From positions 1 to 33,889 of the forward strand of contig JAGAOE010000063.1 of the NCBI GenBank assembly GCA_017623885.1: a stretch of DNA of 33,889 nucleotides. Reading direction: 5' to 3'. Below the pieces are notes generated by a model, which did no database searches, was not told the origin of the DNA, and saw only the letters and a program-made list of their open reading frames with translations. Made by a program: the position numbers and the translations under genes. Source of the stretch: Eubacterium sp. (GTDB lineage: Bacteria; Bacillota; Clostridia; Lachnospirales; Lachnospiraceae). This document shows positions 17,352 through 20,283 of the stretch, piece after piece; position 1 is the first letter of the stretch, and each line of letters opens with the position of its first letter.

Positions 17352-17570
17352 TCATCTGCTCGGTTTCATATCAAGAATACTTTTTTCTTTCGGTTTTTTG
17401 GAGGGATTCAAGTTCTTATTTATCTCTGATATCTCACTACACCATCGTCTGCGGCTCATATGGTCAAGCTGCATCACTTCATCCATGCCCCAGTGAAAAT
17501 AATACGAGATAAAAGACATTTCCCGATAAAGCTCCTCTTTCGGATATAACTTTATCCCTCCTCGGTAAAA
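17352..17570 (-). CDS. DUF6760-like small CIS protein, probably made by -1 frameshift
   Basis: In the -1 frame relative to the chaperone gene, translation from the slip site gives 72 residues: FYRGGIKLYPKEELYREMSF, then ISYYFHWGMDEVMQLDHMSR and RRWCSEI, ending in a basic tail (KKPKEKSILDMKPSR). The LYP..ELY.E....YYFHW..DEV..L.H..RRRW pattern matches DUF6760, a small family encoded after the tail assembly gene in many eCIS loci. No ATG, GTG or TTG lies before the conserved GG..LYP start. The first internal ATG (17519, 55 aa) would cut off the conserved LYP-ELYRE part. The frame opens at the slippery heptamer 17570-17576, so a frameshift fusion of about 187 aa is the favoured reading; reinitiation at 17519 is the alternative. 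Confidence 0.7.
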   Translation of the reverse strand, partial: FYRGGIKLYPKEELYREMSFISYYFHWGMDEVMQLDHMSRRRWCSEISEINKNLNPSKKPKEKSILDMKPSR

Positions 17571-17914
17571 TTTAAAGGCACCTGAAAAATCTCACCACAG
17601 GAAGGACATACGACTTCCATCATGGGCGGCTCGATATCGTTGATTCTCTGATACATATCCTGCAAAAAAGCAAGATCGGCAGTAAACAACTTCTCGATAA
17701 TATTTGCGCCAATCATCGGAATACCTTCCAGCTCAGTCACTACCTTGCTCAGAATCACAATCGTCAAATAAGAAGGATTGCTCAGTACACGCGGATCTCT
17801 GGTCGCACTTATTTCATCTCCTGCTGTCGCCAGACGCATCTTTCCGTGTCTATGAAGTTCTCCGTTACTGTCCATATATCCTTTCGGAAGGGTAAATTCA
17901 AATACTGTTTCCAT
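17552..17914 (-). CDS. Phage/CIS tail assembly protein (chaperone-like)
   Basis: The 120-aa protein matches the eCIS/phage tail assembly family placed right after tube genes: FEFTLPKGYMDSNGELHRHG, KMRLATAGDEISATRDPRVL, NPSYLTIVILSKVVTELEGI and LFTADLAFLQDMYQRIND. Near the end it has a VCPSCGEIF CxxC pair, possibly half a metal site. In phages, such proteins chaperone tube, tape-measure or hub assembly, often as a short form and a frameshifted long form. The start ATG has GAGGAG upstream. The last codons contain T_TTA_AAT in exactly the register needed for -1 slippage, and the -1 frame continues into the DUF6760-like sequence. Confidence 0.8.
   Translation of the reverse strand: METVFEFTLPKGYMDSNGELHRHGKMRLATAGDEISATRDPRVLSNPSYLTIVILSKVVTELEGIPMIGANIIEKLFTADLAFLQDMYQRINDIEPPMMEVVCPSCGEIFQVPLNFTEEG
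17570..17576 (-). promoter_or_regulatory. Candidate -1 ribosomal frameshift site (T_TTA_AAT)
   Basis: The minus-strand sequence CCT TTA AAT TTT contains TTTAAAT in the X_XXY_YYZ register of the zero frame, 19 nt before the zero-frame TAA. Slipping back one base after AAT opens the DUF6760-like frame with no stop for 72 codons. A small GGATA/TATCC stem lies downstream; no clear upstream Shine-Dalgarno stimulator was seen. Confidence 0.6.
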
Positions 17915-17967
17915 TTTGATCTCCTCGCTTTTTTGTTTTTATCTGATTTTTTCTACAAATGTTCCAA

Positions 17968-18048: not shown

Positions 18049-18546
18049 TTAGTTCGGAATAATCAATTCTTCGTAAGCAATTTCAACTGACTCGATTGCT
18101 ACTTCACTTGTTTTTGCATCAAGATCCGGTGCATTGTACTTGCTTACCCATGCATTTGTCAAAATCCATACACGTGTGCCGGTAATGCTGTCTACTCTTG
18201 TCTGAGGCGCGCCACCGTTAATGTCGATCATCTCGATCTGTACGTTATTACGAGGCATCTCACCACGAACCTCGCTCACACATTCCTGAATCCATGTCTT
18301 AAATGCGCTATCCAGTGTATAACCAAATTTCAAGGTTACATTTCCATGCTTTACAAGTCCGGGAATCTTAACCGGTGCAAGGCTGCTGGCATTTCCCTGA
18401 CGGAACTCAATTACATCTACACTAGCTTCCACGCCACTTACCTCACTAAACGCTGCGGTTCCACTCACACCGTCTACAGTGACGAGGAAGTTCATTTTAG
18501 TCAACGGATACGCAAGATTTTTTCCATCGCTTTCATATGTTGCCAT
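18049..18546 (-). CDS. Inner tube protein (gp19/Hcp-like fold)
   Basis: This 165-aa protein has the usual length and sequence of CIS/phage T4 gp19-type tube subunits: YPLTKMNFLVTVDGVSGTAA, FSEVSGVEASVDVIEFRQGN, the conserved KIPGLVKHGNVTLKFGY block, FKTWIQECV, and an ending NAPDLDAKTSEVAIESVEIA followed by YEEL. Hexamers stack into the tube that is driven through the target envelope. It follows the sheath by 39 nt with a strong ribosome binding site (AAAGGAGAG). The paired hairpins right after its stop may help keep its mRNA abundant. A second tube-like protein is encoded at 15619-17313. Confidence 0.93.
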   Translation of the reverse strand: MATYESDGKNLAYPLTKMNFLVTVDGVSGTAAFSEVSGVEASVDVIEFRQGNASSLAPVKIPGLVKHGNVTLKFGYTLDSAFKTWIQECVSEVRGEMPRNNVQIEMIDINGGAPQTRVDSITGTRVWILTNAWVSKYNAPDLDAKTSEVAIESVEIAYEELIIPN

Positions 18547-18585: not shown

Positions 18586-20283
18586 TTACTCTTCTCCGCC
18601 ACTAGCTTCTGCTGTGTGCTGAGTTACACGGAAGATTACAAATTCTGCAGGACGAGACGGTGCAATACCGATGTTGCAGATTAACTTTCCGCTCATAATG
18701 TCATCTTTACTCATAGTAGAAGGTCCAATCTCTACAAAATATGCCTCTGAAGCAGATCCGCCTGCAAGCATTCCGGTTCTCCACATACCATCAAGGAAGG
18801 AAGAAATTGTCATGCTGACTCTCTGCCACAATGTCGCATCGTTGGGCTCGAATACAACCCAGTTTGTATTTGCCTTAATGCTCTCCTCCACATAGATGAA
18901 GAGACGGCGAACGTTAATATACTTGAATGCGCTGTTGCTGCTGGCAGTCTTCGCACCCCAAATACGGATACCCTGTCCAGGGAAGAAACGAATCAGGTTG
19001 ATTCCTTCCGGATTTAAGATATCCTGCTCTGCCTTTGTATAATTGGTCTTCAAACCGGTACAGAATACCGTCTCATTTGCCGGAGCTTTATGTACGCCGC
19101 GATTGATATCTGTTCTTGAATATACACCAAGTACAGCACCTGACGGCGGAATGAAATCTGCCTTGTTGGATGCGCGGTCAAATACCTGAATCCAGGGATG
19201 ATACATAGCAGCATATGTAGAATCAATCATATTTCTGTACTCAATCAGCTCTGCTGTCTTGTACATATCCTTCGGCATATCAATGACAGCCACACGGTTC
19301 TTTAAGCTCTCGCAATGTCCTACTAATGCTACGATTACTTCCGGAATTGTCACACCGGGAACTGCCATCATGCTTACCAGCTCATTTTCTACGAATGACT
19401 GGATACCGGTACGCTTTCCGGGACCACCATCTTCACCGATAAAGGTAGCTGCATTTACTTTGTTCATAGAACCATCGCTACCACCTTCAAGTGTAATCAT
19501 ACCGCTGCTCTGTCCCTCGCCGAGAATCGCTTCTACCGGATTTCCAACGGTTTTCATCACGTCAACGCTCACCTTTACGAGCTCGCTGGATGCTAACTTA
19601 GATCCGATATAGTTCGGAGAAGCAGTGTTAAAGCTTAACTCTGTATAATTCTCTGCTTCGTCATTGTAACGAACGCTTGCATCCACTGTAACCAGATATA
19701 ATACGGTCTTCGGAACAAGTGCATCGTCCACTACTTTTCCGGTAAACGGCTGCTCAAAAACAATCGCATTGTCAAAAATAGATTTAATCTTGTTATACTC
19801 GCCATTTACTACTACTAAGTCACCTTCACGGAATCCTTCTACAGATTTTGCGATGTAACCTTCACCGGCTTCTGATACTAACTGCATTTTCTTCTTTGTT
19901 ACGGTATTAAAGGACATTTGAATGCGATTTCCCCACTTACCTTCATTTGCAGCTTCGATGGTAAGGATACCTGCAGTCTTCTTAGCAACTTTTGCATCTG
20001 CAGGGATTACACGTGATACGAAACAACGAGTTCCTCCGTTTGCAAAGAACTGCTCTACGCTGTTCGCAAGATAACGATATTCGCCATGTGTAAACTCGCT
20101 CAAAAATCCGCCAAACTGCTTCGTAAAGCTCTTAAAGCTTGTCACCAGTAAGGGAGCTCCGATTGCAGCACCTTTTTCTGCAAGACCCACAAAACCTGCG
20201 GTACTTGTTCCTACTCCTTCAATGCTACGAGGGGAATTATCATATTCCTCGACATATACGCCAGGTGATAAATATTCAGCCAT
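18586..20283 (-). CDS. Contractile sheath protein
   Basis: This 565-aa one-piece sheath opens with the classic MAEYLSPGVYVEEYDNSPRS then IEGVGTSTAGFVGLAEKG. It closes with the sheath C-terminal fold: FFPGQGIRIWGAKTASSNSA, FKYINVRRLFIYVEESI, WVVFEPNDATLWQRV and a strand NIGIAPSRPAEFVIFRVTQH. The sheath contracts around the tube to drive injection. A middle insertion of about 250 residues is the variable outer domain. Only one sheath gene is present, whereas Afp and Pvc have three and T6SS has a two-protein sheath. Its ribosome binding site is strong (AAAGGAGAAA). The tube gene follows by 39 nt, the order typical of CIS loci. Confidence 0.95.
   Translation of the reverse strand: MAEYLSPGVYVEEYDNSPRSIEGVGTSTAGFVGLAEKGAAIGAPLLVTSFKSFTKQFGGFLSEFTHGEYRYLANSVEQFFANGGTRCFVSRVIPADAKVAKKTAGILTIEAANEGKWGNRIQMSFNTVTKKKMQLVSEAGEGYIAKSVEGFREGDLVVVNGEYNKIKSIFDNAIVFEQPFTGKVVDDALVPKTVLYLVTVDASVRYNDEAENYTELSFNTASPNYIGSKLASSELVKVSVDVMKTVGNPVEAILGEGQSSGMITLEGGSDGSMNKVNAATFIGEDGGPGKRTGIQSFVENELVSMMAVPGVTIPEVIVALVGHCESLKNRVAVIDMPKDMYKTAELIEYRNMIDSTYAAMYHPWIQVFDRASNKADFIPPSGAVLGVYSRTDINRGVHKAPANETVFCTGLKTNYTKAEQDILNPEGINLIRFFPGQGIRIWGAKTASSNSAFKYINVRRLFIYVEESIKANTNWVVFEPNDATLWQRVSMTISSFLDGMWRTGMLAGGSASEAYFVEIGPSTMSKDDIMSGKLICNIGIAPSRPAEFVIFRVTQHTAEASGGEE

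Follow-up and report, generated by a model that had tools for sequence, protein, structure and literature searches.

In phage lambda the tail assembly chaperone (TAC) is made in a short and a long form, gpG and gpGT, through a -1 frameshift upstream of the tape measure gene, in a ratio of about 30:1, and the T domain connects the tape measure and the tube (PMC5009743). Phage P2 gpE and E+E' (PF06528, Phage_P2_GpE) involve a -1 shift with the annotated slip site TTTTTTG (T_TTT_TTG), and this TAC is encoded just before the tape-measure gene. Among actinophages, about a thousand annotated TAC frameshifts share the slip motif GGGGGAA, named "fivetwo" (PMC10885494).

The DUF6760 genes of eCIS clusters, as annotated by the NCBI pipeline (PGAP), encode the same protein family in the same gene order as the locus described here; unlike it, they are listed as free-standing genes with ATA, ATT, CTG, GTG or internal TTG starts, or are missed altogether. 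Neither a paper on DUF6760 nor a function for it was found in the searched literature, and within the same literature, outside which most subscription papers and preprints lie, no report ties injection systems to programmed frameshifting. The -1 frameshift of the TAC, known from phages, would here be found outside phages, joining the chaperone of a contractile injection system to DUF6760.

A contractile injection system gene cluster

The window, the whole stretch of 33,889 nucleotides of a Eubacterium sp. contig (JAGAOE010000063.1), contains an eCIS-like contractile injection system cluster. Its Pfam gene set comprises sheath, tube, Pvc16_N, DUF4280/PAAR-like spike tip, Baseplate_J and Tail_P2_I, and two CIS_tube proteins are encoded in the same minus-strand cluster. 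The features that bear on the argument, all on the minus strand, are the following.

17352-17567 (-): -1 frame extension, 71 codons (YRGGIKLYP...KPSR) then TGA; from the frame read and the junction and stop bases
17382-17555 (-): DUF6760 domain (PF20546), homologue of P2 E' by profile; Pfam and hhalign
17552-17914 (-): predicted tail assembly chaperone, short form, 120 aa, ATG start, TAA stop; ORF, phrog_508 match and fold matches
17567-17573 (-): slippery heptamer A_AAT_TTT (AAATTTT), the conserved putative -1 slip site; X_XXY_YYZ register, 83 of 83 close relatives
17570-17576 (-): heptamer T_TTA_AAT, overlapping A_AAT_TTT and not conserved; in register in the window, and in 4 of 83 relatives
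17579-17583 (-): AGGTG, Shine-Dalgarno-like, upstream of the slip site; weakly suggested as a stimulator by GAGG equivalents
17921-17926 (-): chaperone ribosome binding site, GAGGAG; seen in the sequence, 6 nt upstream of the ATG
18049-18546 (-): tail tube protein (Phage_T4_gp19), directly upstream of the chaperone; Pfam E = 5e-31
18586-20283 (-): contractile sheath protein; Pfam Phage_sheath_1 and 1C

DUF6760 is followed by a gene (17319-15619, minus strand) for a 566-aa protein with a weakly gp19-like N-terminus (E = 5e-4), and then by one (15594-13534, minus strand) for a Gln/Glu-rich, probably helical 686-aa protein with no Pfam match. Neither was matched as a tape measure by Pfam in the window; the 686-aa protein is a candidate tape measure or scaffold. 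The 566-aa protein carries several degenerate repeats (RYFLPGSKS.., RYNGTEE..SADKRGR). The cluster of this Lachnospiraceae-type genome further includes a 685-aa exported protein (24734-26791, minus strand), TolC/efflux-like by eye without Pfam support, and a membrane protein with MORN repeats (26795-28027, minus strand; Pfam E = 1e-6).

The chaperone and DUF6760 frames overlap

The chaperone, whose 120-aa short form carries a CxxC near its C-terminus, ends in GTG CCT TTA AAT TTT ACC GAG GAG GGA TAA. Within this stretch T_TTA_AAT (17576-17570) and A_AAT_TTT (17573-17567) overlap, both in exact X_XXY_YYZ register, and TTTAAAT does lie five sense codons before the stop, as the original prediction had it. 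The -1 frame, read as TAC CGA GGA GGG ATA AAG TTA TAT CCG onward, is open to the TGA at 17354-17352, and the segment matches DUF6760 with a Pfam E value of 2.3e-18. It contains no ATG, GTG or TTG before LYPKEELYRE; its first ATG (17519) falls inside the domain and opens a 55-aa ORF, the one that a gene finder would call. The prediction of an open -1 frame encoding a DUF6760-like protein with no usable start before its conserved part thus agrees with what is found. DUF6760 is present in a single copy in the source genome.

Slippage at either heptamer would give a long form of 116 + 71 = 187 aa, joined after F116 through the junction peptide VPLNF-YRGG. Since this peptide is the same for both heptamers, mass spectrometry cannot separate them.

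Both halves have phage counterparts

Each of the 38 aligned chaperones (38/38) matches phrog_508, "tail assembly chaperone". The predicted model of the chaperone (pLDDT 87) aligns with Bacillus subtilis YqbN at Z 7.0 and with the HK97 tail assembly chaperone at Z 6.3; a Z below 8 is weak on its own, and the background of this fold is sparse, only 5 of 522 candidates reaching Z 2. In the comparison with viral models (BFVD), T4-like gp26-type baseplate-hub proteins match at E = 1e-6 and Mu FS-gp41 at E = 0.017; the T4-like gp26/gp51-type and Mu FS-gp41 TACs have the closest predicted folds (E = 1e-6 to 0.02). Mu FS-gp41 is, judging by its name, a frameshift product; for T4-like phages, Vladimirov reportedly proposed in 2022 a mechanism other than frameshifting. 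By its family match and modelled fold, the upstream protein is a tail assembly chaperone.

The DUF6760 model consists of three helices (pLDDT 76). Profile-profile comparison (hhalign) with the P2 E' family gives a probability of 87% and a score of 33.5 over 35 columns (FHWxxxE...L/M......W); the best of 200 column-shuffled controls scored 18.3 (0/200 reaching 33.5) and the reversed control 10.0. DUF6760 is thus, at the profile level, homologous to the P2 E' extension, from which it differs in its LYP motif and longer tail. The modelled chaperone fold together with the profile match provides phage counterparts for both the short form and the -1 extension. In P2 the counterpart of DUF6760 is likewise translated only after a -1 shift. 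The P2 TAC precedes the tape-measure gene; in the window the tube gene lies directly upstream of the chaperone, and the two genes that follow DUF6760 include a candidate tape measure. Unlike P2, a phage, the present locus belongs to a chromosomal injection system and uses A_AAT_TTT. Phage lambda differs in its slip site, G_GGA_AAG, and its non-contractile tail, and no match was detected between its T domain (PF06223) and DUF6760.

Other searches with these proteins were negative. Foldseek with the DUF6760 model, which is small and helical, gave no significant match, and sequence searches of solved structures with DUF6760 or the chaperone returned none that was meaningful. No phage relative of DUF6760 was found by tblastn with two queries against 50,697 phage records, nor in IMG/VR.

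A conserved heptamer in close relatives

The overlap was read in register in 83 non-redundant loci, almost all from Lachnospiraceae, with some from other Clostridia (Oscillibacter, Gracilibacteraceae). The octamer TAAATTTT is invariant in all 83, and so is A_AAT_TTT, its three zero-frame wobble positions included. In the same ORFs, AAT accounts for 63% of Asn codons, TTT for 66% of Phe codons and A-ending codons for 19% of Leu/Ile/Val; from this codon usage, all three wobble bases would be expected to coincide in about 8% of loci (0.19 x 0.63 x 0.66). Just upstream, the codons of invariant residues are free at the third base (Cys T/C 44/39; Gly and Pro with all four bases), and past the zero-frame stop, found 5 nt ahead of the LYP codon in every locus, the variation shifts to the wobble positions of the -1 frame. 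Conservation extends to the -1 peptide KFYxGG (KFY..GGI), even though no start codon precedes it. In 49 of the 83 loci a -1 stop occurs at most three codons upstream, so in those loci the shift must take place at the slip site.

These figures have to be read with two limits. On average, about 21% of simulated synonymous recodings contain a heptamer in the correct register within the overlap; a heptamer in one locus therefore means little, and the weight lies in its invariance and in the distant loci, the conservation fractions of loci related by descent being neither independent nor to be multiplied. Furthermore, since NF and KF are both encoded across it, the heptamer is fixed in sequence, and its invariance is therefore evidence of -1 translation across it, not independent proof of slippage.

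The original prediction placed the shift at T_TTA_AAT. This is a classical slippery sequence and it stands in register in the window; however, it does so in only 4 of the 83 relatives, all of which also have A_AAT_TTT, and we consider it unlikely to be the site. The conserved element is the overlapping A_AAT_TTT (17573-17567), and T_TTA_AAT could add to slippage in the source genome. Of the two features that alignment of relatives was expected to show, the missing start codon is thus borne out (69/83 loci have no ATG, GTG or TTG between slip site and domain, and 47/83 have none anywhere in the -1 ORF), while conservation of TTTAAAT is not.

Alternatively, DUF6760 could be a separate translation product: ribosomes that terminate on the chaperone would reinitiate at its stop or close by, aided by the GGAGGG immediately ahead of the stop, on a non-standard codon (ATA, TTA, CTA). 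Nearly all Lachnospiraceae-type loci do have GGAGGG or AGAGGG ahead of the stop, and ATGA/GTGA overlaps occur in Streptomyces and Haloferax. The start codon is, however, not conserved at the stop overlap, where ATA is commonest (48 of 83 loci), followed by TTA (13), TTG (8), CTA (6), ATG (6) and CTG (2), and the Leu codon 7 nt after the Shine-Dalgarno-like run is CTT or CTC in 48/83. Reinitiation would also leave unexplained the invariant AAATTTT, the conservation of KFY upstream of the stop and the register that the T_TTT_TTN and G_GGG_GAN sites of relatives share, which makes it an improbable general explanation. A free DUF6760 could also be made by reinitiation where ATG or TTG overlaps the stop (14/83 loci) or where GTG or ATG does so in Streptomyces.

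Distant relatives and annotation

A distant set of 42 loci (L010, L011, L091-L097, L099-L131), sampled across phyla from plasmid records, covers other Bacillota, Actinomycetota, Cyanobacteriota, Pseudomonadota, Spirochaetota and one haloarchaeon; the overlap was read by hand in L102, L104, L109, L126 and L129. In 41 of the 42, a heptamer in the correct register precedes DUF6760, which is encoded in the -1 frame; the heptamer may be A_AAT_TTT, T_TTT_TTA, T_TTT_TTG, T_TTT_TTC, G_GGG_GAA, G_GGG_GAG or G_GGG_GGA. The P2 site T_TTT_TTG recurs in L101, and G_GGG_GAA, found in Actinomycetota, Cyanobacteriota and Pseudomonadota loci of DUF6760, is shared with the TACs of actinophages, which, in contrast, are phage genes. 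Most of the Streptomyces loci examined keep CTGGGGGAA despite a GTG or ATG overlapping the stop. A check of the relatives for loci that have an evident start but lack the heptamer turned up no bacterial case among those examined. The single exception is the archaeon Haloferax larsenii, on a plasmid of which (L114:1190-1205) DUF6760 lies in the -1 frame with an ATGA start-stop overlap and no recognised heptamer; in haloarchaea, reinitiation perhaps takes the place of slippage.

A sequencing error or a decayed gene can be dismissed almost with certainty: out-of-frame neighbours are, in general, common in broken genes, but no result here favours decay, and the same arrangement with both frames intact in 83 non-redundant and 41 distant loci rules it out. 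Slippage of RNA polymerase on a homopolymer run, leading to a mixed mRNA population, is conceivable for the T_TTT_TTN and GGGGGG sites of some relatives, which are short homopolymers. RNA polymerase slippage usually requires longer runs, however, and no run in AAATTTT exceeds four; moreover, the register would be irrelevant to the polymerase, yet it is always kept, and we regard this explanation as very improbable.

One distant locus is atypical. L131, from the Treponema succinifaciens plasmid pTRESU01 (86758-89913), has a weak DUF6760 match (E = 0.1) and a truncated chaperone with CTGGGGGAAGCATAA, and adjoins an ISAs1-family transposase; it is probably a spirochaete relative damaged by insertion, and may be a remnant.

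That the two proteins are usually annotated as separate eCIS genes, as originally stated, holds for PGAP, which lists DUF6760 as free-standing. The starts that it assigns are ATA in Nostoc, ATT in Pseudanabaena, CTG in S. cadmiisoli and an internal TTG in Rhodococcus, and in Brasilonema the gene is missing from the annotation. These odd or absent annotations of RefSeq/GenBank plasmids (L106:1207, L110:1207, L103:1231, L129:1204, L113) look like frameshift artefacts, and a frameshift would explain the erratic annotation of DUF6760 genes.

Proposed mechanism and its implications

Judging from the register, its invariance, the absence of a start codon, the phage TAC homology of both halves and the switching of heptamers between lineages, contractile injection systems very probably make 120-aa and 187-aa forms of the TAC by programmed -1 frameshifting. 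The proposal that -1 slippage fuses TAC and DUF6760 in such a system is strongly supported by the comparative data, well beyond the source lineage. It is likely, at a lower level of confidence, that TAC frameshifting is ancient and near-universal in the DUF6760-bearing contractile injection systems of bacteria, in at least five phyla, the heptamer having been swapped among at least three unrelated types.

We infer slippage, its rate and its role in assembly along the following lines. Most ribosomes would stop at the TAA and release the 120-aa short form, while some would slip back by one base on A_AAT_TTT, tRNA-Asn re-pairing on AAA and tRNA-Phe on UUU, and would continue in the -1 frame to produce the 187-aa VPLNF-YRGGIKLYP... 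protein carrying DUF6760. If the phage analogy holds, a tape-measure-like protein is probably coated by the short form, and the less abundant long form probably recruits tube subunits through its DUF6760 end during assembly of the machine.

Both a role and an expression mechanism are thereby proposed for DUF6760 from sequence comparison. The phage logic of tail length and tube initiation, frameshift included, would have been carried over into domesticated injection machines. If the near-universal reading is true, the annotated DUF6760 is not a free gene in most such systems. If frameshifting operates, codon optimisation or splitting of these clusters, and likewise their recoding or refactoring, would silently lose the long chaperone.

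Possible stimulators of slippage

The switching of the heptamer at one fixed place offers a natural test of which features a slip site needs in bacteria. In the Lachnospiraceae-type set no strong conserved downstream hairpin or pseudoknot was detected; the fold obtained was a 5-bp stem (RNAalifold -0.95 kcal/mol) with a z of about -2.7 on short windows, which was not seen on longer ones. On account of this weak fold and its loss on longer windows, downstream RNA structure is not claimed as a stimulator. Upstream, GAGG occupies the place equivalent to the AGGTG of the window in 50 of the 83 close relatives, and the spacing of the Shine-Dalgarno-like element is 7 nt to A_AAT_TTT, and 10 nt to the T_TTT_TTN and G_GGG_GAN sites of many distant loci; this element is not significant per locus against synonymous recoding.

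In L092, L094, L096, L097, L102, L103, L106, L118 and L119 the slip site's GGGGG has CCCC(C) a short way downstream, within the GYP codons (GGCTACCCCC), and these loci could therefore form a short hairpin that contains the slip site or follows it.
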